From an uncultured Pelagibacteraceae bacterium (GTDB lineage Bacteria > Pseudomonadota > Alphaproteobacteria > Pelagibacterales > Pelagibacteraceae): a stretch of DNA of 64,000 nucleotides. The translations under genes and the position numbers were made by a program. The DNA lies in NCBI GenBank assembly GCA_902581605.1, contig CACHPE010000008.1, positions 1 to 64,000 on the forward strand, read 5' to 3'. This document shows positions 27,682-54,573 of the stretch, one piece after another. The number at the start of each line of letters is the position of its first letter. The first letter of the stretch is position 1. The notes below the pieces were generated by a model. That model did not search any database. It was given only the letters and a program-made list of their open reading frames with translations, and had not been told where the DNA came from.

Positions 27682-27698
27682 ATATTGCTTGACATATA

Positions 27699-27735
27699 AA
27701 TGTTATATTATTACATAACGTTATATTATAACAAC
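27699..27735. promoter_or_regulatory. Two overlapping Zur-box-like palindromes in the znuA/znuC divergent promoter
   Basis: Box 1 (27699-27717) is AATGTTATATTATTACATA and box 2 (27717-27735) is AACGTTATATTATAACAAC. The known proteobacterial Zur consensus is close to AATGTTATANTATAACATT: each box differs at only a few positions, and box 2 contains the perfect palindrome GTTATA-T-TATAAC. They touch at one base, spaced 18 bp centre to centre. A TTGACA (27689-27694) immediately precedes box 1. Bound Zur would cover both promoters, repressing znuA and znuCB-zur when zinc is adequate, with autoregulation of zur. Confidence 0.8.
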
Positions 27736-27752
27736 CAATTAAATTACTTATT

Positions 27753-28856: not shown

Positions 28857-28888
28857 CAAAGCATTCATATTTCTATATAATGTAGAAT

Positions 28889-29428
28889 ATGAAAATTAGC
28901 ACTGGCGATAAATTAGAGGAAATTACACTTCCAGATCAGAATGGTAACTCATTTAATTTATCTCAGACCTTAGGGAAAAAAGTCTTATTAACTTTTTATA
29001 GAATCGCAGGTTGTAGCTTCTGCAACCTAAGACTTAATGAAATTAATAAGAGATTTGGTGAACTTGGAAATAATTTTACACATGTTGGAATATTTCATTC
29101 ACCAGTAGATAATTTAAAATCATATATGGATAAGCATAAGAATTTACCATTCACAGTATTAGCAGATGAAAATTTTGAATATTTTCAAAAATATGAAATT
29201 GAGAGATCAGTGAGTAAAACACTAAACGCAATTTTGTTTAAAGCACATAAAATTATTCCTGCTATGATGAAAGGATATATTCCTACAAGAATAAAAGGTC
29301 ATTTAGATATAGCTGTGACCGACGTTCTAATTAATGAGGATGGTGTAGTTCAAGATGTTTATTATGCTAAAAAGGACATTGCAGATCATTTTGAATTTGA
29401 AAAAATTAAGCAGTTTGCATTAAATTAA
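28889..29428 (+). CDS. Peroxiredoxin-like / AhpC-TSA family thiol protein
   Basis: A 179-residue thioredoxin-fold protein of the AhpC/TSA class. DKLEEITLPDQNGNSF at the start and RIAGCSFCNLRLNEI near residue 48 show the active-site CxxC. No signal peptide, so it is probably cytoplasmic. The CxxC in place of the usual TxxC peroxiredoxin site places it in the peroxiredoxin-like group of uncertain substrate (peroxide or disulfide). It is 32 bp after znuA and 7 bp before the DsbA-fold isomerase, so these may form a small redox operon. Confidence 0.8.
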   Translation: MKISTGDKLEEITLPDQNGNSFNLSQTLGKKVLLTFYRIAGCSFCNLRLNEINKRFGELGNNFTHVGIFHSPVDNLKSYMDKHKNLPFTVLADENFEYFQKYEIERSVSKTLNAILFKAHKIIPAMMKGYIPTRIKGHLDIAVTDVLINEDGVVQDVYYAKKDIADHFEFEKIKQFALN

Positions 29429-29435
29429 ATAAATA

Positions 29436-30029
29436 ATGAAAATTGAATATTATTTTAGTGTCTTGTCTCCATTTACTTACTTAGGTGCTGATAGATTTAC
29501 AAAAATAGTAAGTCAATATAATTTAGAAGTAATAGAAAAACCACTTGATTTAGTTGGTGAAATTTTTCCAAATACCGGAGGATTACCAGTTCCTAAAAGA
29601 CACCCTGCAAGACAAAAGTACAGACTTTTGGAAATGGAGAGAATTTCAAATAAATTAGGTTTGCCAATTATTAAACAGCCAAAATTTTTTCCACCTAGTG
29701 ATCCACATTTGCCAGCAAAATTTGTAATCGCCTCAAATAAAATGGGAAATAAACTTCATTTTGGAAATGAGTGTTTAAAATATTTATGGTCTATGGATAA
29801 AGATCTTTCAGATCACAAAATACTTCGGGAAATTTGTGAAAAATTAAATTTAAATTTTGAGGAAATGAAAAAGTTAGCTTTAACTGACGAAGTAAACATT
29901 GAGTACCAAAAAAATTCAAAAGATGCAGTTAATAACCATGTATTTGGTGCTCCTTCATATGTCTTAAATAACGAGATTTTTTGGGGTCAAGATAGATTGG
30001 ATTATCTTGAAGATGCATTAAAAAAATAA
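29436..30029 (+). CDS. 2-hydroxychromene-2-carboxylate isomerase family protein (DsbA fold)
   Basis: A 197-residue kappa-class GST/DsbA-like protein. The start IEYYFSVLSPFTYLG matches the HCCA isomerase family, with Ser instead of Cys at the active site. The C-terminal HVFGAPSYVLNNEIFWGQDRLDYL is the family signature. HCCA isomerases act in naphthalene breakdown with glutathione, but many marine alphaproteobacterial homologues lie outside such pathways and the substrate here is unknown. It follows the peroxiredoxin-like gene by 7 bp and probably shares its transcript. Confidence 0.85.
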   Translation: MKIEYYFSVLSPFTYLGADRFTKIVSQYNLEVIEKPLDLVGEIFPNTGGLPVPKRHPARQKYRLLEMERISNKLGLPIIKQPKFFPPSDPHLPAKFVIASNKMGNKLHFGNECLKYLWSMDKDLSDHKILREICEKLNLNFEEMKKLALTDEVNIEYQKNSKDAVNNHVFGAPSYVLNNEIFWGQDRLDYLEDALKK

Positions 30030-30115
30030 TTTAAAATTACTAAATTTTATTAATAATTTAATTAAACATTGTATTTTTTTATAAGAAGATTTATTTTTAT
30101 TTATAATCTGCATTT

Positions 30116-30997
30116 ATGAATGATTTGAATTTATTTAAAAAAAATGGCTTTCTTGTTAAAGAAAATCTAATTTCTCGAACAAAGATAAATAAAATAAATA
30201 AAATTGTTAATGAAGTAATTTTAAAAGAGAAAAAGAAAAAAAATGGTAATGGTGCAAATGGAACTCAATCCTATGATAATTACCATTTTGTCTACAATTC
30301 AGGCTCTTCTAAAAATAAAGAAATTTTAAGACTTAATAATCCTCAGAACAGACATAAAATCTTCTATGAATTATCTAGAGATAAAAGAATTATATCTATA
30401 GCTAAAAAATTATTAGGTGGAACAGTAAGATTTCATCTAGGTAAATTAAATTTTAAACTACCAAATAAGAAAAAAGGAAGTGAAATTGGATGGCACCAAG
30501 ATTGGGCTTTTTACCCTCATACAAACGATGATTTAATTACAGTTGGTATATATTTAGATGATTGCTATGAAAAAAATGGGCCACTTAAAATAATAAAAAA
30601 ATCACACAAAAAGAAATTGTACAGTCACCACAGCAAAGAAAATTATTTTGTTGGAAAAATAGACACTAAGAAAGATAAAATAGGAACTAAAGATAGTGTT
30701 TCTATAACTGGAACTGCTGGAACGGTCGTTTTTTTTCATTGTAGATCAGTTCATGGGTCTGGACACAACCAAATGAATAACTCAAGACCGTTAATTTTAT
30801 TTGGTTATAGAGCTTGTGATGCGTGGCCATTAATCAATGATGGAAATCCTCATCCTGAGGTTGATTTGGAAAATTATGACAAAAATATAATTGTAGGAAA
30901 TAAATCAATAAAACCAAGATTGACTAAAGTTCCAACCATTATCCCACTGCCTAAGAGGAAACATTACGTTTCTATCTATGAACTTCAAAAAAATTAA
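30116..30997 (+). CDS. Phytanoyl-CoA dioxygenase (PhyH) family protein
   Basis: A 293-residue Fe(II)/2-oxoglutarate dioxygenase of the PhyH family. The iron ligands are visible as His and Asp in GWHQDWAFYPHT (HxD) and His in RSVHGSGHNQ, with an Arg in SRPLILFGYRA for 2-oxoglutarate. The substrate is unknown; PhyH enzymes hydroxylate lipids, ectoine or phosphonates among others. A TATAAT at 30102-30107 only 9 bp before the ATG suggests a very short leader. The last 16 codons, PLPKRKHYVSIYELQKN, are part of a 122-bp repeat found again after glpD. Confidence 0.85.
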   Translation: MNDLNLFKKNGFLVKENLISRTKINKINKIVNEVILKEKKKKNGNGANGTQSYDNYHFVYNSGSSKNKEILRLNNPQNRHKIFYELSRDKRIISIAKKLLGGTVRFHLGKLNFKLPNKKKGSEIGWHQDWAFYPHTNDDLITVGIYLDDCYEKNGPLKIIKKSHKKKLYSHHSKENYFVGKIDTKKDKIGTKDSVSITGTAGTVVFFHCRSVHGSGHNQMNNSRPLILFGYRACDAWPLINDGNPHPEVDLENYDKNIIVGNKSIKPRLTKVPTIIPLPKRKHYVSIYELQKN

Positions 30998-31071
30998 ATC
31001 ACATTAAAGTTTATTGTAATAAATCTTTAAAATTACATTTATATAAAAATCAAATGTCATTTCTAAAAAAA
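30950..31071 (+). repeat. 122-bp direct repeat, left copy (phyH end, spacer, start of small-ORF)
   Basis: This segment aligns without gaps to 39003-39124: 76/81 identical in the first part and 32/41 in the rest by hand count. It holds the last 16 codons of phyH, an intergenic region with a degenerate Pho-box-like repeat (TTGTAATAAATCTTTAAAA, 31014-31032) and the first codons MSFLKK of the gene that is complete at 39107. With the right copy it brackets the DUF1868-ugpQ-ugpCEEA-ugpB-glpD block. Confidence 0.93.
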
Positions 31072-31098
31072 AAAACTATTACAGGCTTTAAGAATTAA
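31054..31098 (+). pseudogene. 5' remnant of the small membrane-protein gene (MSFLKK...)
   Basis: An ATG at 31054 opens a 14-codon frame, MSFLKKKTITGFKN. The first six codons match the start of the intact gene at 39107 (MSFLKKYLKW), including the preceding promoter-like DNA. After an 11-A run the homology stops, and the frame ends in the 3' end of the convergent DUF1868 gene. It is best read as a gene start stranded when the block to its right was inserted. Confidence 0.7.
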
Positions 31099-31798
31099 TA
31101 CTTTTAAACTCCAGCATATCTTTAAAAGTATACATTTCAGGTTTTTTGAAAGTAATTTTTGGAAATTTTTTATTAAAGTCAGAGGATAGTTGTTTATTAA
31201 ATTCAATTAAGTTTTTTATTTCAGTCTCATTAAGTTGTCTCAAAATATAAGCTAAAGTAATATGGAAAGTATATCTTTGATGATTTTCAAATTTAATTTT
31301 TAACAAGCTACTAAGTTCATCTCTACAATTTCTTAGAATTTTTTCATCCTTTTCAGAAAAGGGTACTAAAATAATACTATAACCACCAAAAAAAGTTTTT
31401 AGTTTAAGATTAAATTGTTTTGGAAAATTATAATTTTCAATTTTTTTATTTAATTCAACAGCTATATCTTTATAATCCATATCAGGATCTATATCGGATG
31501 GCCAATAATTGGTGTTTTTTGTATTTAAATTACAACAATCAAATAATGTCATATGAAAACTAGATGGAGGTAAATAGAAATAAGTTTTTTTAGGATTAAA
31601 ATTTTCTATTTTTTTTTGGAAACTAATAATTTGATTAGATAAATCGGTATTAATAGGAATATTGCAAATTATTGTGCAGCCTGGAAATGATAAAGGGTTT
31701 CCTTTGTTGTCAAATTTATTTTCAGCACCTTTTAAAGTGTAACCTTCAAGTTTACCTGCTAAAAACTTTTCCTCATTATTAACTATGTTTAAATCCAT
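31088..31798 (-). CDS. 2H-phosphoesterase-like protein (DUF1868 type)
   Basis: A 236-residue protein with two Hx(T)x motifs of the 2H phosphoesterase superfamily: SFHMTLFDCC near residue 79 and TFHITLAYIL near residue 177. GYTLKGAENKFDNKGNPLSFPGCTI at the start resembles DUF1868 proteins. 2H enzymes open 2',3'-cyclic phosphates or cleave related phosphodiesters. It lies 9 bp after ugpQ at the end of the ugp operon, so an organophosphate role, such as opening cyclic glycerophosphate, is a reasonable inference but unproven. It has no signal peptide, so it is probably cytoplasmic. Confidence 0.75.
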   Translation of the reverse strand: MDLNIVNNEEKFLAGKLEGYTLKGAENKFDNKGNPLSFPGCTIICNIPINTDLSNQIISFQKKIENFNPKKTYFYLPPSSFHMTLFDCCNLNTKNTNYWPSDIDPDMDYKDIAVELNKKIENYNFPKQFNLKLKTFFGGYSIILVPFSEKDEKILRNCRDELSSLLKIKFENHQRYTFHITLAYILRQLNETEIKNLIEFNKQLSSDFNKKFPKITFKKPEMYTFKDMLEFKSINS

Positions 31799-31807
31799 TA
31801 AAATATA

Positions 31808-32728
31808 CTAAAACCATTTTTTATTTTCTTTTTCACAAAGTTCTTTCAGCCTTAGAGGATAATCTGTAAATATTCCATCTACACCATATTCAATCATCCG
31901 CATCATGTCGCTTTCTCTATTTACAGTCCAAGTATTTACCACTAGTCCATGATTGTGTGCTTCTTCAATATTTTTTTTTTTTATATCTTTGTAAAAAGGA
32001 TGCCAAGCAATTCCACCTAAATTATTTATAACTTCTGGAATTTCACTGTTATTAAAAAATGGAATAAACCCCATCCAAGGTGAATTTTCATAAATATTTT
32101 TCCTTGTTTTTTTTAAATCTTGTTGTGTTGATAAATAACCTCTAGAAATTTTTGGTAATTGTAATTTAAATTCTTTTAAAACTCTCCAATCAAAGGAAGA
32201 AACTAAAATTCGATCGCTTAAATTAGAGACTTCTATTTCTTGCTTTACAAGTTTTACAATCTCAATAGGTTCAGGAACTAGATTGCTAATTAATGGACTA
32301 GACTTAAATTCTAAATTAATTATTAAATCTTCAGTTTCATAAGATTTTAATAATTTAAACAATTTGTTTAAATTTGGTATTCTCTGGTTTTCTAAACTTT
32401 TTTGATTTAAAAATCTTCTGCCATAACTAGATAATTTATTAACAGCTCCTATATCATAATTTAATAATTCTTTATAAGTTTTACTATTAATTTTCATATA
32501 TTCATCTTCTATCCAATTACCATCTAAGTCTTTAGTCTGATCTCTGTCTAAGAAAAAATCATGGGTAATTACTGGCACCGAATCTTTAGAAAATAAAATA
32601 TCTACTTCTAATCCACTAAAATTATTATCAAATAAATATTTGAAACTCTCTAAAGTATTTTCAGGAAGATCACCTCTAGCTCCTCGATGACCATAAATTT
32701 TTATATGATTTGGTTTACTTAAAATCAA
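31808..32728 (-). CDS. ugpQ: Glycerophosphodiester phosphodiesterase
   Basis: A 306-residue GDPD-family TIM-barrel enzyme that hydrolyses glycerophosphodiesters (glycerophospho-choline, -ethanolamine and others) to glycerol-3-phosphate and an alcohol. The catalytic motifs are IYGHRGARGDLPENTLESF with HR and the Glu, GLEVDILFSKD, and THDFFLDR. The C-terminus ends with GVDGIFTDYPLRL, typical of the family. No signal peptide, so cytoplasmic, as for UgpQ in E. coli. It lies 2 bp after ugpC. Substrates would be brought in by UgpABCE, and G3P is passed to GlpD. Confidence 0.93.
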   Translation of the reverse strand: MILSKPNHIKIYGHRGARGDLPENTLESFKYLFDNNFSGLEVDILFSKDSVPVITHDFFLDRDQTKDLDGNWIEDEYMKINSKTYKELLNYDIGAVNKLSSYGRRFLNQKSLENQRIPNLNKLFKLLKSYETEDLIINLEFKSSPLISNLVPEPIEIVKLVKQEIEVSNLSDRILVSSFDWRVLKEFKLQLPKISRGYLSTQQDLKKTRKNIYENSPWMGFIPFFNNSEIPEVINNLGGIAWHPFYKDIKKKNIEEAHNHGLVVNTWTVNRESDMMRMIEYGVDGIFTDYPLRLKELCEKENKKWF

Positions 32729-32730
32729 AT

Positions 32731-33783
32731 TTAATTAACTCTTTTGCCAGTACTTTTATCAAAAATATAATATTTATTGTTCTCCATATTTACTCTTAAA
32801 TTAGAACCTTTTTCAACAGTTTGATTTCCTGGACACCTATAACAAAAGTCTTTTTTATTTTTCAATTGACCATAAACAATATTATCCGAACCAAGCTGTT
32901 CCACTAAGTCTACTGTTAAATTAATTAAACCACTCTCAGATTGTACTAAATGCTCAGGTCTTATTCCTAATGTAACCTCACCCTCAAAGTCAGTATTAAC
33001 ATCTTTAATTTCAAAACCTTCTGCAGATAATGTTTTATTTTTTAAATTACCATTTAAAAAATTCATTTGAGGTGAACCAATAAAACCAGCAACAAATAAA
33101 GATTTTGGATTATCATATATCTCAATAGGAGTTCCAAGCTGTTCAATAATTCCATTATTAATTACTGCCAATCTGTCAGCAAGTGTCATGGCCTCAACTT
33201 GATCATGTGTAACAAATATACTTGTTACTCCAACCTTTTGTTGAAGTTTTTTAATTTCAAGTCTCATCTGAATTCTTAATTTTGCATCTAAGTTTGAAAG
33301 AGGTTCATCAAATAAGAATATTTTTGGATTTCTTACAATTGCTCTTCCCATAGCAACCCTTTGTCTTTGACCTCCAGATAACATTGAAGGTTTTCTCTGT
33401 AAATAATCTGAAATTTGTAACAGTTTAGCTGCATCATTTACTTTTTGCTCAATTGTTTCTTTATCAATTCCTCTGTTTTTTAAACCATAAGCCAAATTAT
33501 TATACACATTCATATGTGGGTATAATGCATAGTTCTGAAACACCATTGCTACATCTCTCTCAGATGGATCAACTTCATTAATTAATTTTCCATCAAGATT
33601 AATATCACCCTCTGTAATGTCCTCTAAACCTGCAACCATTCTTAATAAAGTTGATTTTCCACATCCACTTGGTCCTACAAAAACCATAAACTCTCCTTCA
33701 TCTACACTTAATGAAGTTTCGTGAACAGCCTTAGTTCCGTTTGGATAAATCTTAGTCACATTTTTTAAATCTAAAAAACTCAT
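32731..33783 (-). CDS. ugpC: sn-Glycerol-3-phosphate ABC transporter ATP-binding protein
   Basis: A MalK/UgpC-type ATPase of 350 residues. Walker A is [17 protein letters not shown], the signature SGGQRQRVAMGRA, Walker B IFLFDEPLSNLDAKLR and switch VTHDQVEAMTLADR. The C-terminal TOBE/regulatory domain has GIRPEHL. It powers uptake of G3P and glycerophosphodiesters; assignment to ugp rather than sugar uptake rests on neighbours ugpQ, ugpA, ugpE and ugpB. It abuts the first ugpE by one base. Confidence 0.93.
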   Translation of the reverse strand: MSFLDLKNVTKIYPNGTKAVHETSLSVDEGEFMVFVGPSGCGKSTLLRMVAGLEDITEGDINLDGKLINEVDPSERDVAMVFQNYALYPHMNVYNNLAYGLKNRGIDKETIEQKVNDAAKLLQISDYLQRKPSMLSGGQRQRVAMGRAIVRNPKIFLFDEPLSNLDAKLRIQMRLEIKKLQQKVGVTSIFVTHDQVEAMTLADRLAVINNGIIEQLGTPIEIYDNPKSLFVAGFIGSPQMNFLNGNLKNKTLSAEGFEIKDVNTDFEGEVTLGIRPEHLVQSESGLINLTVDLVEQLGSDNIVYGQLKNKKDFCYRCPGNQTVEKGSNLRVNMENNKYYIFDKSTGKRVN

Positions 33784-34635
33784 TTATTTCTCCGTTTGAA
33801 TTAATCCTTTTATGAACCATTTTTGTAAAAATACTACCACTAAAACTGGTGGGATCATTGATAAAATTATATATGCAAATCTTTCTGCTGTTCTTGGCAA
33901 AGCAACTCCTTCATAGCTTTCTGTGTAAATAATTTTCATTCCCATTACAACAGTCCAATATTCTTCTGCAGTTGTCATTATTAGCGGCCATAAATATTGG
34001 CTATATCCATATACGAACATAAAGATAAACATTGCTGCTATCATAGTTTTTGATAGTGGTACCAAGAAATCTATGAAAAAACTCCAAGCATTTGCTCCAT
34101 CTAATTTTGCCGACTCCAAAAGTTCATCTGGAATTGTTTTGTAAAATTGTCTGAAGAAAAAAGTTGCTGTAGCTGAAGCAACTAACGGAAGAATAAGGCC
34201 TGTGTATGAATTTGTTAAACCTAAATCAGATACAATTTTATAGCTTGGAAAAATTCTTACCTCCAAAGGAACAAGTAGAGTAATAAAGATTAACCAAAAA
34301 ATTGGTACAGCTAATTTAAATCTATAATAAACCAAAGCATATGCTGACATTGCAGAAATAACAACTTTAAGTGTTGCAATCCCTAATGCCATTATAAAAC
34401 TATTAATAAACATTTTTGCAGCAGTCACTTCTTCTGACCAACCACCTTTTTCATTTAAAACTTCGTTATAGTTTCTTGCTAGCTGATCACCTATATGAAA
34501 CTTCATACCTTCCGTCAGTATAGTTACAGAGTCATGTGAAGAACTTGCAAAAGATATCCAAATAGGAACTACCATTAACAATACCCCTAATATTAAAATA
34601 ATATGAGCAATTATTTGAAGTGGTTTAATTTTCAT
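33784..34635 (-). CDS. ugpE: sn-Glycerol-3-phosphate ABC transporter permease UgpE (copy nearer ugpC)
   Basis: A 283-residue inner-membrane permease of the MalG type with six TMs. The ATPase-contact EAA loop is DELLESAKLDGANAWSFFIDF. It is very similar along its length to the next gene upstream: FMFVYGYSQYLWPLIMTTAEEYWTVV aligns with FMFVFGYNQYLWPLLVTTSEQYWTVV. The copies differ mainly in the periplasmic loop near residues 50-65 and by an insertion (TESYEGVALPRTAER) before the last TM. Its ATG overlaps the stop of the other copy by 4 bases. One copy plus UgpA would make the usual heterodimer, so the pair may give two transporters or a specialised one. Confidence 0.9.
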   Translation of the reverse strand: MKIKPLQIIAHIILILGVLLMVVPIWISFASSSHDSVTILTEGMKFHIGDQLARNYNEVLNEKGGWSEEVTAAKMFINSFIMALGIATLKVVISAMSAYALVYYRFKLAVPIFWLIFITLLVPLEVRIFPSYKIVSDLGLTNSYTGLILPLVASATATFFFRQFYKTIPDELLESAKLDGANAWSFFIDFLVPLSKTMIAAMFIFMFVYGYSQYLWPLIMTTAEEYWTVVMGMKIIYTESYEGVALPRTAERFAYIILSMIPPVLVVVFLQKWFIKGLIQTEK

Positions 34636-35453
34636 TTATCTTGAAAAACCCCCTTAATAAAATGTTTCTGCAACACAATTATAATTAAAATTGGTGGAAC
34701 CATAGACATCATCACAAAAGCAAAACGATGAACAATAGAACCCGACATCATTTTTAATCCCATAACCACTGTCCAATATTGTTCTGAAGTTGTTACCAAT
34801 AGCGGCCATAAGTACTGATTGTAACCAAAAACAAACATAAATATTAACATCGCTACAATCATCGTTTTTGACAAAGGAATTAAAAAATCAACAAAAAATC
34901 TCCAGGTATTTGCCCCATCAAGTTTTGCAGACTCAAGTAATTCATCTGGAACAGTTTTATAAAATTGTCGAAAGAATAATGTTGCTATAGCTGATGCTGA
35001 AATTGGAACTATTAATCCAAAGTAAGAATTTACTAAATTAAGTTCAGCCATTACTGAATAAGTAGGAAAAATTCTTAACTCTAGTGGTACTAATATCGTG
35101 ATAAAAATTATCCAAAACAATAATGTTGCATGTTTTATTCTATAATAAACCAATGCGTAGGCAGCCATTAAAGATGTGACAACGGATAGAATTGCAACTC
35201 CCGTAGCCATTAAAAAACTATTAAAAAACATTTTTAATGCTGTTATCTCTTTAAAGAAACCACCCTGATATAATAAAACCCGTAAGTAATTTTCATAAAA
35301 GCTATCTCCTAAAAACATTTGGAGACCATTCATATTAATCATTGAACTTGTGTGCGTTGAGCTAGCAAAAATCATCCACACAGGAAGTACCATGATAAGT
35401 ATTCCAATGATTAAAATTAAATGTGAAAAACTTGATGTGATAAATCTAGTCAT
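34632..35453 (-). CDS. ugpE: Second UgpE-type permease (tandem paralogue next to ugpA)
   Basis: A 273-residue MalG-type permease with six TMs, the EAA loop DELLESAKLDGANTWRFFVDF and the motif SKTMIVAMLIFMFVFGYNQYLWPL. It is the tandem partner of the preceding ugpE-type gene and closely resembles it, so it arose by duplication or was acquired as a pair. It lacks the loop insertion before the last TM seen in its twin. It shares one base with ugpA (35453) and overlaps its twin by 4 bases, so all three are translationally coupled. No sign of decay: both frames are intact with conserved coupling motifs. Confidence 0.88.
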   Translation of the reverse strand: MTRFITSSFSHLILIIGILIMVLPVWMIFASSTHTSSMINMNGLQMFLGDSFYENYLRVLLYQGGFFKEITALKMFFNSFLMATGVAILSVVTSLMAAYALVYYRIKHATLLFWIIFITILVPLELRIFPTYSVMAELNLVNSYFGLIVPISASAIATLFFRQFYKTVPDELLESAKLDGANTWRFFVDFLIPLSKTMIVAMLIFMFVFGYNQYLWPLLVTTSEQYWTVVMGLKMMSGSIVHRFAFVMMSMVPPILIIIVLQKHFIKGVFQDK

Positions 35454-36331
35454 TAATTATAATGTATTTTCCCTTCGATATATCTAAATTGAAAAATTGT
35501 AATTACTAATACAATCAACATCATCATTATTGATTGAGCTCCAGCACTTCCTAAATCTAATCCTCTAAATCCATCCATGTAGGCTTTATAAACTAGAGTT
35601 CTTGTTTCACCTGAAGGAGCACCTATCGTTGTAGTATCAATAATTCCAAATGTATCAAAGAAAGCATAGGTTATATTAATAATTATTAAGAAGAATGTAG
35701 TTGGCATTAATAATGGGAATGTAATTGTCCAAAATCTTCTAAAACTATTTTTACAATCAATCATTGATGCTTCAATTACAGATTTTTGTATAGCTTGAAG
35801 ACCTGCCAAGAAGAAAATAAAATTAGCACTGATTTGCTTCCAAGAACCAGCTATTATTACATAAATATACGAGTCAAAAACACTCTCGTACCAATTGAAA
35901 CCCCAAAGTTCGTGAAATAAATGATAAAGGAGCCCAAATCTTTCACTAAAAAAATAATTTGCCATTACACCTACAACCGCAGGCGCAATTGCATAAGGCC
36001 AAATTAAAAGTGTTTTGTAAGTGCTTTTACCATGTATTACATTATTGGCCTGAACGGCAAGCAGCAAACCGATTGAGCCGGTAATTAATGTAATTGCAAA
36101 ACTATAAATAATAGTAAATTTGAAAGCTATAAAATAAGCTGGATCATCAAAAATAAATAAAAAATTATCAAACCATACAAACGTCGCTCCAAATCCAAAA
36201 GCATCTTGCATTGTAAATGCATCTCTGAAGGTTTGTATGATTGGCCAATATAAAAAAATTAATAAAATTCCTAACTGTGGTGCTAAGAATAAATATTGTG
36301 AATAGCTAGATTTAAATTGGACTTTTTTCAT
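35453..36331 (-). CDS. ugpA: sn-Glycerol-3-phosphate ABC transporter permease UgpA
   Basis: The 292-residue MalF-type permease partner of UgpE. Six TMs; a typical start YLFLAPQLGILLIFLYWPIIQTFRDAFTMQD, and the EAA loop KSVIEASMIDCKNSFRRFWTITF. It is the first gene after the ugpB/ugpA intergenic hairpin. Assigned to ugp from the neighbours and from strong family resemblance (VWFDNFLFIFDDPAY). It shares a base with the second ugpE. Confidence 0.92.
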   Translation of the reverse strand: MKKVQFKSSYSQYLFLAPQLGILLIFLYWPIIQTFRDAFTMQDAFGFGATFVWFDNFLFIFDDPAYFIAFKFTIIYSFAITLITGSIGLLLAVQANNVIHGKSTYKTLLIWPYAIAPAVVGVMANYFFSERFGLLYHLFHELWGFNWYESVFDSYIYVIIAGSWKQISANFIFFLAGLQAIQKSVIEASMIDCKNSFRRFWTITFPLLMPTTFFLIIINITYAFFDTFGIIDTTTIGAPSGETRTLVYKAYMDGFRGLDLGSAGAQSIMMMLIVLVITIFQFRYIEGKIHYN

Positions 36332-36345
36332 ATAAGTAAAATAAA

Positions 36346-36379
36346 AAATAAGGAGGGTAAATCAACACCCTCCTTATTT
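36346..36379 (-). terminator. Rho-independent terminator/attenuator between ugpB and ugpA
   Basis: A perfect 13-bp stem (AAATAAGGAGGGT with ACCCTCCTTATTT) has an 8-base loop. On the minus strand it is followed by a U-rich tail (TTTATTTTAC). It lies just past the ugpB stop (36390) and before the ugpA start (36331). Partial termination here would yield more binding protein than permease, as is known for many ABC importers. A similar element separates pstS from pstC. Confidence 0.88.
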
Positions 36380-36389
36380 AAATTATTAA

Positions 36390-37697
36390 TTATAAAGTTT
36401 TAGCGAATTGTTTTAACAATTTAGCTGCACCTTTATCCATGTTCTGCAATCCTTTTTCGATTGATATTTTGCCGTTTAACATTGGCTCAACATTTTCGTA
36501 AATTACTTCACGAATTTGTGGCCAATTACCAGCTCTATATCCACCAGGAATAGTCGAACCTTCTAAGCTTAATTGTTCACCAACTGCTTTATGATATGGA
36601 GAAGCTCTATAGAAATTTATAGTTTCAGCTAACTCTATTCCACCTTTAGTTACTGCAGAGTAACCAGTCATATTGTGATAATACAGATCCATCTCTGGAG
36701 AACCCATAAATTCTATAAATTTAGCAAGTCCTTTGTACTCTTCCTCAGTATGACCATTTAAGATCCAGTTAGCAGCACCACCGATAAACGTTGGATACTC
36801 TTTACCACCAGTTACAGAATCCCAGTAAGGAATATGGTTTACTGTAAAGTTAGGTACAACACCTTTCATTCCACCGAACGAAGCAGCTGAACCAAACCAA
36901 AATGCAGCTTCACCAGCTATAAATGGAGCTTGGTTATCTCCCCACGCTCTTCCTTTATATCCATAAAAGCCTTTTTCATACCATTCCTTGACTTTTTTCC
37001 AATGCATTACAAATGCATCTGTTTCAGCAAATAAAGTTTTTGTTGGAACAGCATCGTAACCATTGTTTCCATCAGTCATAAGTAGATTATGTCTTGAAAA
37101 GAAATTTTCTGTCCATATCCAAGGAAAGTGACTTTGAACTAAAGGTATGTATCCGGCAGCTTTAATTTTTGGAGCTATAGCCTCAAACTCTTCATAAGTT
37201 TTTGGAACTGACTCAATTCCTACTTTTTTCAATATGTCCATGTTTGCATACATCAAACAAGTTGAGCTATTGAAAGGCACACCAATCATTTTTCCATCAG
37301 AGTCTGCATAGAAATTTTTAATGCCTGGAATATAATTGTCAGCATCTACATCAATGCCATATTTCTCTGCCATTTCTTCAAAACCGATGACAACACCATT
37401 TTTTACTTGCGCTACCATTATTGCAGCACCAGCATCATAAACCTGTGAATAGTGTGGTTGGTCTCCTGCTCTAAATGCAGCAATAGTTGCCGCCATGTTA
37501 TCTTCATAACTTCCTTTTCCTGTAGGAATGACCGTATATTGATCTTGTGAAGCGTTAAATCTATTTGCAATTTCAATAATTACATCACCAAGAAAACCAC
37601 TGTTTCCGTACCACCAATGAATTTCTGTTTTTGAATAACTGTGTGATGTAAAAGAGAAAGTAAATAGAATTGTTAAAACACTAAGTATTTTTTTCAT
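36390..37697 (-). CDS. ugpB: sn-Glycerol-3-phosphate ABC transporter substrate-binding protein
   Basis: A 435-residue periplasmic binding protein with a signal peptide (residues 1-22, ILSVLTILFTFSFTSHSYS). The mature start TEIHWWYGNSGFLGDVI, the GSYEDNMAATIAAFRAG region and the later PTFIGGAANWILNG match UgpB proteins. The aromatic WWYG and GGAANW resemble residues that hold glycerol-phosphate in UgpB (inference). It is the promoter-proximal gene of the ugp operon and lies divergent to glpD with a 144-bp spacer. Confidence 0.93.
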   Translation of the reverse strand: MKKILSVLTILFTFSFTSHSYSKTEIHWWYGNSGFLGDVIIEIANRFNASQDQYTVIPTGKGSYEDNMAATIAAFRAGDQPHYSQVYDAGAAIMVAQVKNGVVIGFEEMAEKYGIDVDADNYIPGIKNFYADSDGKMIGVPFNSSTCLMYANMDILKKVGIESVPKTYEEFEAIAPKIKAAGYIPLVQSHFPWIWTENFFSRHNLLMTDGNNGYDAVPTKTLFAETDAFVMHWKKVKEWYEKGFYGYKGRAWGDNQAPFIAGEAAFWFGSAASFGGMKGVVPNFTVNHIPYWDSVTGGKEYPTFIGGAANWILNGHTEEEYKGLAKFIEFMGSPEMDLYYHNMTGYSAVTKGGIELAETINFYRASPYHKAVGEQLSLEGSTIPGGYRAGNWPQIREVIYENVEPMLNGKISIEKGLQNMDKGAAKLLKQFAKTL

Positions 37698-37751
37698 ATC
37701 TATCCTTCTGTTAAGTTTAGTTTATTTTATTTTTTATTAATAATTAATTAA

Positions 37752-37785
37752 TGTTAAGGTATTATGAAATTGTAAATAATTTCAT
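37752..37785. promoter_or_regulatory. ugpB/glpD divergent control region: 22-bp palindrome and weak Pho-like repeat
   Basis: ATGAAATT-GTAAAT-AATTTCAT (37764-37785) is a perfect 8-bp inverted repeat with a 6-bp spacer in the middle of the ugpB/glpD spacer. Overlapping it, on the minus strand, 37770-37752 reads ATTTCATAATACCTTAACA. This fits the CTGTCATA/CTGTAACA 11-bp-period Pho pattern at 12 of 16 half-site positions. The palindrome could be an operator for a glycerol-phosphate-responsive repressor, but I recognise no consensus. Neither element is secure. Confidence 0.35.
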
Positions 37786-37841
37786 TTAAAAATTTTAAAT
37801 TTCTAAAAGAGGTTGTATATTTTTAAAAAATCATGATTTAA

Positions 37842-38993
37842 ATGTCTAAAATTTTTGATTTATTCATAATAGGTGGCGGTATAAACGGCGCAGGTATTGC
37901 GAGGGATGCTGCAGGTAGAGGTTTATCAGTTTGTTTAGCTGACAAAGGTGAGATTGGAGGAGCAACCTCATCTTGGTCGACGAAATTAGTACATGGTGGT
38001 CTTCGTTATTTAGAAAATTATGAATTCAAATTAGTTAGAGAATCTCTCAAAGAAAGAGAAATTGTTTATAAAATTGCTAAACATATTTCCAAACCGATTC
38101 CTTTTATAATTCCTTATGCAGATAAAATTCGACCAGCCTGGTTAATTAAATTTGGTTTGTTTTTGTACGACAATTTAGGTGGCAAAAGCAATATACCAAA
38201 ATCAAAAAAATTTGATCTTACAAAAAAATATTCAAATATTCTTAAAGAAAAATATAAAACTGGTTTTCAATATTTTGACATTCAAATTGATGATAAAAAA
38301 TTAACAAAGTTAAACGCTCAAGATGCAAAAAGAAACAACGCTAAAATACTAGAATATAACAAAGTTAAAAAAGCTGAAATTATTAATAATGAGTGGGTCA
38401 TTAGTCTTCAAAATGGAAAAAAAATAAAATCAAAAGTTTTAATCAATGCATCTGGACCATGGATAAATGAAACTTTAAATAAAAATATAAAAATAAAATC
38501 TAAGAAAAAAATAAGACTGGTTAAAGGAAGTCATATCATTACAAAAAAATTGTACAAAGAAAACGTTGCATTCACATTTCAAAATACAGATAAAAGAATA
38601 ATATTTGTGTTACCTTATAAAGGGAAGTTTTCTTTAATTGGAACAACTGAAGTGGAAGTGAAATCACCAGAAAATAAAGGGATATCTAAAAAAGAAATTA
38701 GCTATTTAATTAATTCAGTAAACAATTACTTAAAAAAACAAATCAGAACAAAGGACATCGTAGATACTTATTCAGGAATACGACCTTTAATTGAAGACTT
38801 TAATTCAGCTTCAAAAGTTACAAGGGATTATGTTTTTGATCTAAAAATTATTAAAAAATTGCCTTTATTGAATATCTATGGAGGAAAACTTACCACCTAC
38901 AGAAAATTGTCCGAAAAAGTTCTTGTTGATCTAAAAAGGTTTTTACCTAAGACAAAAAAAGGTCCATGGACACACAAAAAGAAGCTTTTTTGA
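37842..38993 (+). CDS. glpD: FAD-dependent glycerol-3-phosphate dehydrogenase, C-terminally short
   Basis: A 383-residue GlpD-family flavoprotein that oxidises G3P to dihydroxyacetone phosphate, passing electrons to quinone at the membrane. The FAD motif IIGGGINGAGIARDAAGRG is at residues 8-26, then GGATSSWSTKLVHGGLRYLE, and NIYGGKLTTYRKLSEK is the last conserved block. GlpD proteins are usually about 500 residues; this one stops soon after GPWTHKKKLF and lacks the C-terminal helical cap domain. The TGA stop is followed in frame by a copy of the phyH 3' end, so the end coincides with a recombination junction. The catalytic FAD domain is whole; activity is uncertain. Confidence 0.85.
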   Translation: MSKIFDLFIIGGGINGAGIARDAAGRGLSVCLADKGEIGGATSSWSTKLVHGGLRYLENYEFKLVRESLKEREIVYKIAKHISKPIPFIIPYADKIRPAWLIKFGLFLYDNLGGKSNIPKSKKFDLTKKYSNILKEKYKTGFQYFDIQIDDKKLTKLNAQDAKRNNAKILEYNKVKKAEIINNEWVISLQNGKKIKSKVLINASGPWINETLNKNIKIKSKKKIRLVKGSHIITKKLYKENVAFTFQNTDKRIIFVLPYKGKFSLIGTTEVEVKSPENKGISKKEISYLINSVNNYLKKQIRTKDIVDTYSGIRPLIEDFNSASKVTRDYVFDLKIIKKLPLLNIYGGKLTTYRKLSEKVLVDLKRFLPKTKKGPWTHKKKLF

Positions 38994-39044
38994 TTTCCAT
39001 TCCCTAAAATGAAACATTATGTTTCTATCTTTGAACTTCAATAA
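38994..39044 (+). pseudogene. Stranded 3' fragment of a phyH-type gene
   Basis: Directly after the glpD stop, in the same frame, the sequence encodes FPFPKMKHYVSIFELQ then TAA. It matches the end of the PhyH protein at 30116-30997 (PLPKRKHYVSIYELQKN). No upstream part of phyH is present. It is the left part of the right-hand 122-bp repeat and shows that a phyH gene once preceded the gene at 39107. Confidence 0.85.
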
Positions 39045-39124
39045 AATTAAATCACATTAAAGTTTATTGTAATAAATCTTTAACAAAACATTCATATAAA
39101 TTTTGAATGTCATTTTTAAAAAAA
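39003..39124 (+). repeat. 122-bp direct repeat, right copy
   Basis: An ungapped match (108/122 by hand) to 30950-31071. It contains the phyH 3' fragment, the spacer with a good Pho-box-like element and -10, and the first six codons of the small membrane-protein gene. It marks the right boundary of the ugp/glpD block. The spacing between the two copies is 8053 bp start to start. Confidence 0.93.
39067..39100 (+). promoter_or_regulatory. Pho-box-like promoter of the arsenate operon
   Basis: TTGTAATAAATCTTTAACA (39067-39085) has two 7-bp half-sites at an 11-bp period. It resembles the element upstream of pstS (CTGTAACAATTCTGTAATA) and that upstream of the kinase gene (TTGTAACACAACTGTAACT). TATAAA follows at 39095-39100, nine bases after the box, the spacing expected of PhoB-activated promoters, and the ATG is at 39107. 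The second half-site has T for G, so binding may be weaker. Confidence 0.55.
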
Positions 39125-39331
39125 TATCTTAAGTGGATCAGTACACTTTTAGTGTTAACAGGTATTTTACTTACAAATCTTAATATTTACCCGCTGAATA
39201 TTTATTTTCATGGGCTTGGTGTTGTTGGATGGACAATTTCAGGTTTCTTATTAAAGGATAAGGCCATTTTAACTAACTTTGGATTACAAATTCCATTATT
39301 TGTAATCGGAATTTATAAAATTATTTTTTAA
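39107..39331 (+). CDS. Small membrane protein (DUF6552-like)
   Basis: A 74-residue protein with two or three hydrophobic segments (LLVLTGILLTNLNIYPLN, GLGVVGWTISGFLL, LQIPLFVIGIYKII). It resembles small marine alphaproteobacterial membrane proteins annotated as DUF6552; the family name is from memory and the function is unknown. Its last base is the first base of arsC (39331), so it is translated with the arsenate genes. Its first codons and promoter are duplicated at 31054. Confidence 0.75.
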   Translation: MSFLKKYLKWISTLLVLTGILLTNLNIYPLNIYFHGLGVVGWTISGFLLKDKAILTNFGLQIPLFVIGIYKIIF

Positions 39332-39762
39332 TGAAAAATATTTTATTTGTATGCACAGGAAATTCAGCAAGAAGCATTATAGCTGAGAGTATTATCAATA
39401 ATGAATACTCAAATAAATTTAAAGCTTTTAGTGCTGGTAGTAATCCATCTGGAACAATTAATATTGATGTTAGAAGTTTTTTAGAGAAAAATAAAAATTA
39501 TGATCTAACTAATTATAGTTCTAAAAACTTTGAAGAGTTTATAAATAATGAAATAAAAATGGATCATGTAATAACAGTATGTAATAACGCAAATTATGAG
39601 GTATGTCCTATTTGGCCTGATAAAAACCAAATTATACACTGGAATATAGACGATCCTGTGGCTAAACTTCAAACTGCAAATAACGAAGAAAAGCAAATAA
39701 TCATTAGAAACACTTTTAATATTATAAGCAATAAAATTAAAGATTGGCTAGATGAAAAATAA
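39331..39762 (+). CDS. arsC: Arsenate reductase, low-molecular-weight phosphatase type
   Basis: A 143-residue LMW-phosphatase-fold ArsC. The P-loop FVCTGNSARSIIAES has the CX5R nucleophile. The cysteine pair in VCNNANYEVCPIWPD matches the redox relay of thioredoxin-coupled arsenate reductases. HWNIDDPVAK is the family Asp-Pro motif. It reduces arsenate to arsenite, which a channel or pump must remove. The aquaporin gene overlaps its end by 11 bases. Placement beside phosphate-uptake genes makes sense because arsenate enters through phosphate systems. Confidence 0.9.
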   Translation: MKNILFVCTGNSARSIIAESIINNEYSNKFKAFSAGSNPSGTINIDVRSFLEKNKNYDLTNYSSKNFEEFINNEIKMDHVITVCNNANYEVCPIWPDKNQIIHWNIDDPVAKLQTANNEEKQIIIRNTFNIISNKIKDWLDEK

Positions 39763-40411
39763 AAATAAATATTTTCTTTCAGAATTTATTGGAAGTTGCT
39801 TTCTAGTAATGATCATAGTTGGGTCAGGTTTAATGGCAGAAAATCTTACCAATGATACAGCGGTAATGCTAATTGCAAATACTATAGCAACTGGAGCTGG
39901 ATTGTTTGTGCTAATAACTGTTTTTGCTGATGTGTCTGGGGCTCATTTCAATCCATTTGTAAGTATTGCTATGACAATTACAGGAAAGTTAAAAAAACGT
40001 CTTCTACCCTTTTATATTTCAGCTCAGATCCTAGGATGTTTGTTAGGTGTGGCTTTAGCTAATTTCTTTTTTGAACATCAGATTTTTGAATTATCGACAA
40101 AATCAAGAGATGGTATCTACATTTTTGTATCAGAAATTATTGCTACTTTAGGACTAATAATCATTATTTTTGGATCCATGAAGTCAGGTAAAATTACCGT
40201 AGCTGCATCTGTTGGGTTATATATTACAGCTGGTTATTGGTTTACTTCATCAACATCCTTTGCAAATCCTGCTGTAGCAATAGCAAGAACATTCACAGAG
40301 TCTTTTACTGGTATAAGTTATTTAAACACTCCTTTTTATATAGTTGCTGAATTAATTGGTATGTTAATTGCTGTTTTTATTGCAAAAAAATTATTCTTAA
40401 AAAAAAATTAA
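39752..40411 (+). CDS. Aquaporin/MIP-family channel (likely arsenite exit, AqpS-like)
   Basis: A 219-residue six-TM MIP-family channel. The two half-helix motifs are SGAHFNPFVSIA, NPF rather than NPA, and SFANPAVAIARTF with NPA and the selectivity Arg. Overlap with arsC (11 bases) and the absence of an ArsB or Acr3 pump suggest arsenite leaves down its gradient through this channel, as proposed for AqpS in rhizobia. Glycerol or water transport is an alternative, given glpD close by. The altered first NPA may widen or shift the pore. Confidence 0.87.
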   Translation: MKNKNKYFLSEFIGSCFLVMIIVGSGLMAENLTNDTAVMLIANTIATGAGLFVLITVFADVSGAHFNPFVSIAMTITGKLKKRLLPFYISAQILGCLLGVALANFFFEHQIFELSTKSRDGIYIFVSEIIATLGLIIIIFGSMKSGKITVAASVGLYITAGYWFTSSTSFANPAVAIARTFTESFTGISYLNTPFYIVAELIGMLIAVFIAKKLFLKKN

Positions 40412-40432
40412 AAAATTTTAAAGTTATAATAA

Positions 40433-40461
40433 ATACGCCCGATAAAATTAATCGAGCGTAT
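40433..40461 (+). other. Hairpin after the aquaporin gene, not a clear terminator
   Basis: ATACGCCCGAT and ATCGAGCGTAT pair over 11 positions with one mismatch around a 7-base loop, the most GC-rich element of this AT-rich spacer. It is followed by ATTAAGGGGTGGATTGAC, not a T-run, so it is not a standard Rho-independent terminator. It may protect the arsC-aquaporin mRNA end or be part of a small RNA. Confidence 0.5.
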
Positions 40462-40566
40462 ATTAAGGGGTGGATTGACAATTAAAAAATTTAAATATTC
40501 TATAATTTATTTATAAAATAAAAATGAATGAAATATTTATTTTTTATTAAAAATTTATTACAAAGA

Positions 40567-40588
40567 AACTATTATTAAACTAATAGTT
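40567..40588. terminator. Candidate bidirectional terminator between aquaporin and ppx
   Basis: AACTATTA-TTAAAC-TAATAGTT is a perfect 8-bp stem with a 6-base loop. On the plus strand it is followed by GTGTTTTTTT. On the minus strand it is followed by a U-rich stretch (TTTCTTTGTAAT...). It lies between two convergent genes ending at 40411 and 40606. The AU-rich stem is weak. Confidence 0.55.
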
Positions 40589-40605
40589 GTGTTTTTTTAA
40601 AGAGT

Positions 40606-44257: not shown

Positions 44258-44270
44258 ATATTTAAACTTT

Positions 44271-50757: not shown

Positions 50758-50776
50758 TATTACAGAATTGTTACAG
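50758..50776 (-). promoter_or_regulatory. Pho box upstream of pstS
   Basis: On the minus strand, CTGTAACAATTCTGTAATA is a direct repeat of CTGTAAYA at an 11-bp period, a close match to the known PhoB consensus CTGTCATAWAWCTGTCAYM. About ten bases later comes an AT-rich -10-like AATAAAT. It supports PhoB activation of the whole pstSCAB-phoU-phoB operon, giving positive feedback. Confidence 0.85.
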
Positions 50777-50797
50777 TTTTGTTAAAAAGGTAACTTT

Positions 50798-53691: not shown

Positions 53692-53694
53692 TTT

Positions 53695-54501: not shown

Positions 54502-54515
54502 TAAAAAAACCTTTT

Positions 54516-54534
54516 TTGTAACACAACTGTAACT
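54516..54534 (+). promoter_or_regulatory. Pho box in the plcP/DAG-kinase-like divergent spacer
   Basis: TTGTAACACAACTGTAACT on the plus strand is a direct repeat of TGTAAC at an 11-bp period, close to the pstS box. A weak -10 (CTATTT, 54543-54548) follows at suitable spacing, so activation of the kinase-like gene at 54574 fits. The box is within 15 bases of the plcP start on the other strand; reading it for plcP would need a different geometry. Confidence 0.75.
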
Positions 54535-54573
54535 CGAATCATCTATTTCTTATTTCATTAAAATGTTAAGGAT

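Follow-up and report, generated by a model that had tools for sequence, protein, structure and literature searches.

One proposed mode of gene mobility, described for the restriction-modification genes of Helicobacter pylori, is "insertion with long target duplication" (Nobusato, Uchiyama, Ohashi, Kobayashi, Gene 2000, as presented in excerpts of PMC1643837, PMC4978471, and PMC3154945). Excerpts on aquatic prokaryotes describe replacement flexible genomic islands that are swapped by homologous recombination (PMC4033161), and HIMB59 phosphate islands with pst-pho genes that have no IS elements or tRNAs at their edges (PMC10734472). In homology-facilitated illegitimate recombination, again as given in excerpts, one end is a homologous crossover (PMC3240628, PMC5361080).

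Here we consider a gene block of a Pelagibacteraceae (SAR11) genome, which lies between phyH and an arsenate operon and is bracketed by 122-bp direct repeats. Features are listed in Table 1; "the window" is the whole 64,000-nucleotide stretch analysed. The preliminary description had called the block a glycerol-phosphate cassette, and this name is supported by the structure matches of UgpB (best E 1.7e-68 for 9lff and 2.4e-65 for 4aq4) and of GlpD (aerobic glycerol-3-phosphate dehydrogenase 2qcu, E 4e-102), as well as by UgpC, which exceeds its NCBIfam cut-off. For UgpA, UgpB, and both UgpE proteins, the Ugp models are the best NCBIfam matches, all below cut-off, and the best match of the arsC-like gene, TIGR02691, is also below its cut-off. 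At E 1e-60, 82 of 397 genomes have any ugpA match and each of these has a single one, though the block loci differ. The locus also holds arsenate, polyphosphate, and pst-pho genes.

Table 1. Positions of the block, its repeats, and neighbouring features in the window
Feature	Coordinates	Strand	Evidence or remark
phyH (PhyH dioxygenase), whole; left neighbour of insertion	30116..30997	+	PF05721 E 5.9e-28
Left repeat copy	30950..31071	+	phyH end (intact), spacer, DUF6552 start (dead, decayed)
Fused frame MSFLKK+KTITGFKN* (14 codons)	31054..31098	+	translation; carriers aligned
Aldehyde dehydrogenase gene tail, left end of block	31069..31098	+	24/30 identical; right part overlaps DUF1868 end
DUF1868 (2H phosphoesterase), leftmost block gene	31088..31798	-	PF08975 E 4.2e-24
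ugpQ-like glycerophosphodiester phosphodiesterase	31808..32728	-	PF03009 E 4.4e-37
ugpC, transporter ATPase	32731..33783	-	NF008653 524.2 bits, cut-off 432 (passed)
ugpE, first of two tandem permease paralogues	33784..34635	-	NF008210 280.6 bits, cut-off 297; PF00528
ugpE, second tandem paralogue	34632..35453	-	NF008210 235.3 bits, cut-off 297; PF00528
ugpA permease	35453..36331	-	NF007852 259.8 bits, cut-off 335
ugpB binding protein	36390..37697	-	NF008211 263.4 bits, cut-off 411; structures 9lff, 4aq4, 6x84
glpD, glycerol-3-phosphate dehydrogenase (383 aa), rightmost block gene	37842..38993	+	NF008899 509.6 bits, cut-off 360
Right end of block, TGATTTCCATT	38991..39002	+	followed by phyH remnant
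Right repeat copy	39003..39124	+	phyH remnant (dead, decayed), spacer, DUF6552 start (intact)
Pho-box-like site TTGTAAT-AAAT-CTTTAAC	39067..39084	+	right copy, upstream of DUF6552-arsC-MIP
DUF6552 small membrane protein, whole; right neighbour	39107..39331	+	PF20189 E 8.7e-11
arsC-like gene (low-molecular-weight phosphatase family)	39331..39762	+	PF01451 E 6e-15
MIP family channel, arsenate operon	39752..40411	+	PF00230 E 1.1e-26
MIP-ppx gap	40412..40605		expected place for remnants of a tandem duplication; none seen

The two repeat copies are identical at 108 of 122 positions without gaps, the same figure on recomputing as had been counted by hand, and at 112 of 128 when extended to 30944-31071 and 38997-39124; elsewhere in the window, on either strand, the left copy aligns without gaps at no better than 63/122. 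In the genome's own 1,156,206 bases (36 contigs, 82% complete), matches at E 0.001 lie at the two block edges only, so that the repeat is not the widespread dispersed sequence that would have told against an insertion. A looser search with a longer query added two short matches of 53 and 19 bases (E 0.002 and 0.007).

The repeat is target sequence: in genomes without the block at this position, where phyH stands immediately upstream of DUF6552, it spans the end of the former to the start of the latter. This empty site (phyH, 59 bp, and DUF6552-arsC-MIP, with one repeat copy) occurs at 32 distinct SAR11 loci, recounted as 18 of 40 phyH loci plus 14 further among 55, with 24 distinct repeat sequences among them, and G006 shows the same junction as far as its contig end. 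The preliminary description had proposed that the junction of phyH and the arsenate operon was duplicated when the block entered there, and the single-repeat sites of many relatives, including the junction phyH-spacer-MSFLKKYL that it suggested looking for, agree with this; the opposite outcome, a block in all relatives and no empty site, was not what we found. Seven genomes carry the block at the phyH site and have one junction pair in common (one contig ends before the right junction), with a phyH-DUF1868 gap of 95-97 bp in 7/7 and a glpD-DUF6552 gap of 116 bp in all six that reach the right junction. Judged from these comparisons of related genomes, the 122-bp repeat is the duplicated landing site of the block.

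As previously described, phyH is whole on the left and DUF6552 is whole on the right, but the left DUF6552 "start" is not merely truncated. It is a fusion (MSFLKK/KTITGFKN*), because the left end of the block is the tail of an aldehyde dehydrogenase gene, and the frame marks the left insertion joint; it is not conserved in every carrier, and the length of its poly-A varies. Where the operon adjoins the dehydrogenase gene in other genomes, that gene ends in LEVKTVTGWKD* or LEVKTVTGWKN*, and since six carriers retain the ending VKxVTGW with no adjoining block, the ending is the gene's own. The tail scores 24-29 of 30 in 18/18 blocks examined at three non-home kinds of site, compared with 15/30 for one control and a null maximum of 21/30, although about 20 of the 30 nt overlap the DUF1868 end at the source locus, so that only about 10 nt (GTAAAAACTR) are independent of simple DUF1868 copying. 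The likely source of the block is the locus where the dehydrogenase gene adjoins the operon, with about 27 nt of the tail apparently retained. In the six carriers examined for it, this source site lacks the block (tauD-10 bp-aldDH). At the right end, the glpD terminus resembles those of glpD copies at other sites, and TGATTTCCATT is near TAATTTCCAY, the sequence behind glpD at the ars-ppx site. The ugpQ of the carriers shares only 60-64% identity with the ugpQ of each non-carrier block in the comparison; the direct donor is thus unsampled, and the joints, both of which look illegitimate against the block's relatives, are inferred from those relatives.

The two copies have decayed reciprocally, each only in the half whose gene is broken. 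Scored against the 24 distinct empty-site repeats, the left copy has 0 novel changes on the phyH side and 8 on the DUF6552 side, and the right copy has 3 and 0 (Fisher P 0.006, in effect one observation per copy since the carriers' repeats are nearly alike); empty sites have means of 0.25 and 0.12 private changes in the same two halves. The middle 33 bp has zero novel changes in either window copy, which is not what plain neutral decay would predict. The Pho-box-like site of the right copy has a left counterpart at 31014-31031 with one mismatch, the pattern having been built post hoc from pstS promoters and the right-copy site itself.

Among carriers the block is 99.72-99.92% identical, with 6-22 substitutions over 7903 bp in five carriers and 6580 bp in G227. 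The gyrA genes of the same six are 91-94% identical, this being the sole background gene in the comparison and covering only 416 bp in G280 and 694 bp in AG-360-I06; the gyrA genes of two empty genomes, at 93% each to the window, are no farther than those of the carriers. To the right of the repeat, DUF6552-arsC-MIP is 98.9-99.8% identical in five carriers, and ppx is 99.9-100% identical in four and 99.7% identical over 388 bp in a fifth. Identity falls left of 30750-31000 in the carriers except G227, and at the left repeat four phyH-side versions are joined to one decayed half; two of the four are far from the window's version, which indicates crossovers in or next to the left repeat. The carriers do not form one clade in a valS tree, where starred branches force at least two changes and a single clade appears in 0% of 200 bootstrap trees. 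Nevertheless, five of the six carriers fall together with one empty genome (clustering of this strength arose in only 5/500 shuffles), and because carriers are partly related, with valS 97-98% identical to the window's in three, some of their similarity may reflect the region or common descent. The near-identity of the block, set against gyrA, suggests that its arrangement probably spread recently between SAR11 lineages by homologous exchange through shared flanks.

We consider it quite probable that a single illegitimate insertion with duplication of the landing site was followed by homologous spread. The operon DUF1868-ugpQ-ugpC-ugpE-ugpE-ugpA-ugpB, which in other relatives lies tail-to-tail with the aldehyde dehydrogenase gene, would have been joined to glpD and copied into the phyH / DUF6552-arsC-MIP junction with its remnant of dehydrogenase at the left end. 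Duplication of about 122 bp would have kept phyH intact at the left edge and, at the right edge, both DUF6552 and its upstream region. We infer that this happened once and illegitimately: through microhomology at both ends (an A-run at the left joint, about 12/15 nt at the right), strand exchange or end joining may have returned about 122 bp upstream of its departure point. The decayed half-copies are common to all carriers, so the insertion would predate the spread. Ordinary homologous recombination may later have moved the whole arrangement between lineages, with phyH and the first half of the left repeat providing the homology to its left and arsC-ppx-ppk that to its right. The preliminary description had favoured recombination of a circular or linear donor; the first entry was probably not recombination at the repeat, since 20 block loci taken from other places have no match to it at E 1e-4, whereas homologous recombination does explain the later spread.

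A circle formed by excision of the block with one repeat copy could integrate by a single crossover in a new host's repeat and would yield exactly R-block-R, the repeats then being a mobility device, and at least two carriers (G328 and AG-360-I06) would fit, as their left crossovers fell within or adjacent to the left repeat. We regard this as unlikely because R-block-R must already exist for it to work, and because the high-identity tract continues beyond the right repeat into sequence that a circle would lack. Excision through the repeats, raised earlier, is possible in principle, but no excised descendant or other sign of it was recognised, the nearest empty genome, G074, being 4-6% different from the window in DUF6552-arsC. 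The same genome makes it very improbable that an ancestor ordered phyH-DUF6552-arsC-MIP-block-ppx was tandemly duplicated and lost complementary copies, leaving the repeat and the permuted order: the MIP-ppx gap is 99.2% identical to that of G074 (window 40501-40750; 200 vs 201 bp) with no block-end trace, which also counts against the earlier alternative of a partly replaced tandem duplicate. The order MIP-block-ppx does exist on one contig in five genomes (G342, G419, G335, G352, G230) and across two contigs in G031, and the right end of the block resembles the right ends there; however, no phyH was found beside the G031 arsenate operon, and in windows of the transporter genes, identity is 89-100% with five aldDH-site alleles, 88-99% with two udg-site alleles, and only 76-94% with two ars-ppx alleles.

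Fixed ends could point to an element that has since disappeared and that moved by transposition or site-specific integration, its enzyme making the long target duplication. Blocks at the udg and ars-ppx sites have one starting base in common within the dehydrogenase tail (GTAAAAACT or GTTAAAACT), the right end TRATTTCCAY is common to ars-ppx and phyH blocks, and immediately beyond the right edge of the ars-ppx block there is a 22-bp match to the end of the MIP gene (20/22; P about 0.002 in G342 and 0.03 in G352). One ancestral relocated unit would also explain the common ends, however, and two udg-site loci and ten aldDH-type loci showed no flanking repeat. The genes from 26,935 to 45,460 all have Pfam names other than those of recombinases, in line with the earlier statement that no transposase or integrase was seen; the rest of the window was read only by eye, as ORFs. 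Of the longest 25 among 71 inverted pairs, none links one end of the block to the other, and the nearest tRNAs are at 1726-1801 and 62552-62625. A target duplication of 122 bp, moreover, far exceeds the usual length made by transposases, and we find such an element quite improbable. A related and rather unlikely reading is that the block is a transposase-free mobile operon with fixed ends (dehydrogenase tail on one side, glpD and about ten bases on the other), which would have moved more than once, landing behind gene ends and duplicating their tails without breaking a neighbour, so that one process would account for two separate landings, behind phyH with 122 bp duplicated and behind the MIP gene with the 22-bp match at the block edge.

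Streamlined ocean bacteria carry few transposons, and operon gain at new places in them is usually inferred from gene presence alone. Under a single insertion followed by homologous spread, this one case would show an entry scar, an empty site, a likely source locus, and later spread together. Glycerol phosphate uptake and use, a phosphorus-related trait, is found in separate species-level genomes as a single 8-kb piece that hardly differs between them. We suggest that in a genome so short of spare DNA, the illegitimate insertions that persist may mostly be those whose duplicated landing site spares both neighbours.

The locus resembles homology-facilitated illegitimate recombination, as excerpted in PMC3240628 and PMC5361080, in that at one end foreign DNA is joined where homology is slight or absent, but here neither end exceeds microhomology to known relatives of the block, the true donor being unsampled. 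With the flexible islands of PMC4033161 and PMC10734472, as far as their excerpts go, it has in common a near-identical cluster in diverged backgrounds and a phosphate locus; the block is more alike than its background (gyrA only), and breakpoints fall in shared flanking genes. Those islands are replacements at an equivalent position, whereas the SAR11 block is an addition with an entry scar and a likely source locus. The closest known kind is insertion with long target duplication, in which, in the excerpted accounts, a gene block likewise lies beside a long direct repeat derived from the target; here the repeat stands on both sides (108/122), is single at the 32 empty loci, and is target-derived. 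Compared with the Helicobacter pylori case as excerpted, the SAR11 payload is a nutrient-uptake operon rather than a restriction-modification system (by Pfam and NCBIfam), the latter being a published association that we do not treat as required for membership, and the SAR11 block retains the tail of its source neighbour and lies between repeats whose dead halves have decayed.

The block of ugp genes and glpD lies between two direct repeats (see the table), identical at 108 of 122 ungapped positions, the figure that the preliminary description had counted by hand, and at 112 of 128 on extension. The left repeat's second-best match elsewhere in the window reaches 63/122, and a search of the window's own genome found no third repeat place at E 0.001; a looser search added two short matches of 53 and 19 bases. 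Gene annotation also agrees with the anatomy described beforehand, phyH being whole on the left and a fragment on the right, and the small gene (DUF6552) a start on the left and whole on the right. Both copies of the permease gene ugpE are found in every complete block listed, and the pair may serve one three-permease transporter or two alternative transporters. Among six other close full-length relatives, the open length of GlpD is 383 aa in five and 387 aa in one; since close relatives have a like length, a GlpD this short is usual here and did not arise through the insertion.

Features of the phyH-DUF6552 locus and its surroundings in window coordinates
Feature	Position	Strand	Content
znuA tandem repeat	28121-28338		45-bp tandem repeat, histidine/aspartate-rich, in the znuA gene beside the locus
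Left repeat	30950-31071		intact phyH joined to first DUF6552 codons
Fusion frame	31054-31098		DUF6552 codons (MSFLKK) fused to dehydrogenase KTITGFKN*
Block genes		one strand; glpD opposite	DUF1868-ugpQ-ugpC-ugpE-ugpE-ugpA-ugpB, glpD
ugpE pair	33784-35453		tandem permease genes, 74% DNA identity over 300 bases
GlpD	37842-38993		383 aa; covers about the first 390 of about 500 positions in GlpD models
Right repeat	39003-39124		phyH remnant joined to intact DUF6552, then arsC and MIP channel gene
Pho-box-like site (predicted)	39067-39084
Pho-box-like site (predicted)	50759-50787	-
Adjoining gene set	52684-55485		glycosyltransferase, calcineurin-like phosphoesterase and diacylglycerol-kinase-domain genes
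Pho-box-like site (predicted)	54516-54533

Loci carrying phyH were collected in two sets. The first drew on 397 genomes belonging to the order, of which 59 had a match at E <=1e-60, and 40 loci were fetched; the second drew on the GTDB contig collection and numbered 78 loci, of which 55 were annotated (L280-L334) and 23 omitted at 37% identity or less. The check that had been proposed, for an empty junction with a single repeat in relatives, found it at 32 distinct loci (18 in the first set and 14 more in the second), which read phyH, exactly 59 bp, and DUF6552-arsC-MIP. Among the further phyH loci with identity of 88% or more, eight distinct ones have phoB next at 14 bp (L032, L228, L230, L235, L236, L281, L286, L304), 11 have a more distant allele of DUF6552, 73-106 bp away, and four have no recognised gene either up to the contig end or beyond, including that of genome G006, which has the same empty junction on a contig that stops within DUF6552. 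At the phyH-phoB loci, an allele of the pst operon follows where the contig reaches, and its pstA, pstC and pstS share just 61-65% identity with those of the window. From zinc transport through to pst, the region is a mosaic of alternative gene sets; around the znuA tandem repeat, identity to relatives is low.

The block occupies the phyH-DUF6552 junction in seven genomes, hereafter carriers: the window's genome, G227, G280 (AG-894-P23), G112, G328 (AG-914-B14), G242 (AG-920-D05) and AG-360-I06. The loci most closely related to the window's come from Pelagibacteraceae single-cell genomes and MAGs, in keeping with the SAR11 label of the preliminary description. From phyH to DUF1868 the gap measures 95-97 bp in each of the seven carriers, and from glpD to DUF6552 it is 116 bp in all six whose contig reaches that far; with junction gaps so uniform, a single insertion event therefore suffices.

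The two repeat copies have decayed reciprocally. Seven left and six right copies were aligned with 24 distinct empty-site repeats, and only states absent from every empty site were counted as changes, with L287, L297 and L305, second records of three carriers, excluded from the counts. In the window, novel changes in the left copy number 0 in the phyH half and 8 in the DUF6552 half; in the right copy they number 3 and 0, respectively (Fisher P 0.006, sites taken as independent); private changes per empty site average 0.25 in the phyH half and 0.12 in the DUF6552 half. In each copy, then, the half belonging to a whole gene has been preserved and the half belonging to a dead one has decayed. Because the decayed states are common to all carriers, save one missing from the right copy of AG-360-I06, the duplication predates the spread. 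The repeat's middle 33 bp, with zero novel changes in both window copies, may have a function or may have been renewed by recombination.

Other relatives have the operon, without glpD, flanked by genes for an aldehyde dehydrogenase (PF00171) and a TauD-family protein (PF02668), the presumed source (the aldDH site); there, at the five loci resolved gene by gene, the DUF1868 end overlaps the dehydrogenase gene end. The dehydrogenase C-terminus at aldDH sites is LEVKTVTGWKD* or KN* in four of five loci and LEVKNVTGWKN* in the fifth, while in six carriers, with no block adjoining, it is LEVKNVTGWS* or WN*. In the six carriers examined, no block occupies the presumed source site (tauD-10 bp-aldDH). 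A 30-base dehydrogenase tail, mostly also the overlapping end of DUF1868 and reaching only about 10 nt beyond it, is matched at the block start in 11 loci of two other locations (udg and ars-ppx sites) at 27-29 of 30 bases and in 7/7 carriers at 24 of 30, with the null reaching no more than 21; the block of genome G165, which has no overlap with the dehydrogenase, scores 15. The left "small gene start" of the preliminary description consequently needs amending: its DUF6552 codons are there, but they are fused to the dehydrogenase tail rather than forming a mere start. The fusion frame is not a kept gene, since poly-A length varies among carriers.

The gene ugpA was matched at E <=1e-60 in 82 of 397 genomes, one copy each; the window's genus accounts for 63 of these, and block surroundings were fetched in 27 of the 63 plus a few others. 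The block locations are of four kinds (phyH-DUF6552, FGGY kinase-udg, MIP-ppx and aldDH-tauD), plus the G165 variant (L277), in which a gene that is glyoxalase-like by a barely reached Pfam cut-off (20.7 bits vs 20.6) separates the block from the aldehyde dehydrogenase gene and DUF1868 ends without the dehydrogenase tail. Labels at the other sites follow Pfam (aldehyde dehydrogenase, TauD, uracil-DNA glycosylase superfamily, FGGY-family kinase); the name glpK for the kinase gene was assigned by eye, as was that of the binding-protein transporter adjoining tauD except its ABC ATPase. Against the other blocks compared, ugpQ of the carriers shows 60-64% identity. Windows along the transporter genes show 89-100% identity to five aldDH-site alleles, other aldDH-type alleles being farther, and 88-99% to two udg-site alleles; glpD windows show 86-95% to the alleles compared.

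At the left joint, the landing site gives ATGTCATTTYTAAAAAAA and the block gives AAAACTATTACAGG, the meeting point being an A-run. At the right joint, the block gives TRATTTCCAY, judged from ars-ppx copies, and the landing site gives CCCTAAGAAGAAAC, the parents agreeing at about 12 of about 15 positions by eye, with the best-fitting allele of each. Both joints look like microhomology, as judged from relatives of an unsampled donor. No target duplication was found at two udg-site loci or ten aldDH-type loci. At the ars-ppx site, BLAST returned a 22-bp match in four of five loci and a weaker one in the fifth. In L270, L271, L272 and L274 (MIP-block-ppx), the 22-bp stretch of the MIP end (20/22) turns up again at the edge of the block, some 10 bases to the right of glpD; this is a possible second target duplication, which we do not claim.

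Over 7903 bp (6580 bp in G227), the carriers' blocks differ from the window's by 6 to 22 aligned differences (99.72-99.92% identity). Across the nine genomes asked, gyrA is 91-94% identical to the window's in six carriers (over only 416 bp in G280 and 694 bp in AG-360-I06); two empty genomes stand at 93%, and the remaining one gave no gyrA match. For phyH, identity to the window's gene is 94.5-95% in five carriers and reaches 99.1% in G227. The left repeat occurs in four phyH-side versions, all joined to the same decayed half, and those of G328 and AG-360-I06 resemble empty-genome alleles, which therefore points to crossovers in or beside the left repeat. A valS tree was built for 26 genomes (AG-360-I06, G153, G225 and G006 were without usable valS; those of G303 to G352 having one were kept). 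The carriers are not one clade in it: at least two changes are forced, and 0% of 200 bootstrap trees have one. Five of six carriers group with one empty genome, and the carrier label is clustered (5/500 shuffles as low), with three carriers of that grouping at 97-98% valS identity to the window. Such clustering is evidence against fully independent acquisitions, not against transfer.

Other routes to the present arrangement were also weighed. Tandem duplication followed by reciprocal loss was disfavoured by the empty genome G074, whose MIP-ppx gap is 99.2% identical to the window's. The same genome, the one candidate covered by the excision search, shares the window's phyH-end allele but was rejected as a simple excision product since its DUF6552-arsC is 4-6% different. 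Integration of a circle could also have carried the block between genomes; however, near-identity among carriers continues rightward past the block through ppx, so that circle integration fits less well than homologous exchange of linear DNA. UgpB and PhyH scans of viral contigs, sensitive to close relatives only, found no phage carriage.

Candidate Pho-box-like sites are a lead only. On the 14 positions of the E. coli Pho box consensus, the repeat scores 9, which 98 of 300 shuffled versions of the ugpB upstream region equalled or exceeded. The pattern YTKTAAY-N4-YTKTAAY, built from pstS promoters and the repeat itself after some sites were seen, has 8 matches in the window vs 0.65 expected, three of them within genes. 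The predicted sites include an overlapping pair ahead of pstS, a site within the right repeat, and another between the metallophosphoesterase gene and its divergent kinase-like neighbour. The adjoining gene set there resembles the SAR11 lipid-remodelling plcP-agt set.

With the before and after states, the decay, the source tail and the near-identity directly observed, the best-supported reading is an old illegitimate insertion with a long target duplication, followed by spread through homologous recombination. The insertion would have joined ends through microhomology, with a template or end coming back about 122 bp upstream, and homologous exchange of linear DNA would later have spread the arrangement. 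The duplication left both neighbours unbroken and the upstream region of the arsenate operon intact, which may be why the insertion survived in a streamlined genome.

In the SAR11 literature on ugp, glycerol-phosphate use, hypervariable regions and gene gain, the insertion is undescribed in titles and abstract starts among the matches listed. Earlier work describes a flexible pst-phn island in SAR11 (PMC7318151), islands exchanged by homologous recombination in aquatic bacteria (PMC4033161), and phosphate islands likewise exchanged in HIMB59, where IS elements and tRNAs are noted as absent (PMC10734472). Insertion with long target duplication has been described for restriction-modification genes of Helicobacter pylori (PMC1643837, PMC4978471, PMC3154945), and the pattern equals that of the block here. 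What is unusual in the present case is the payload, the host and the completeness of the record.
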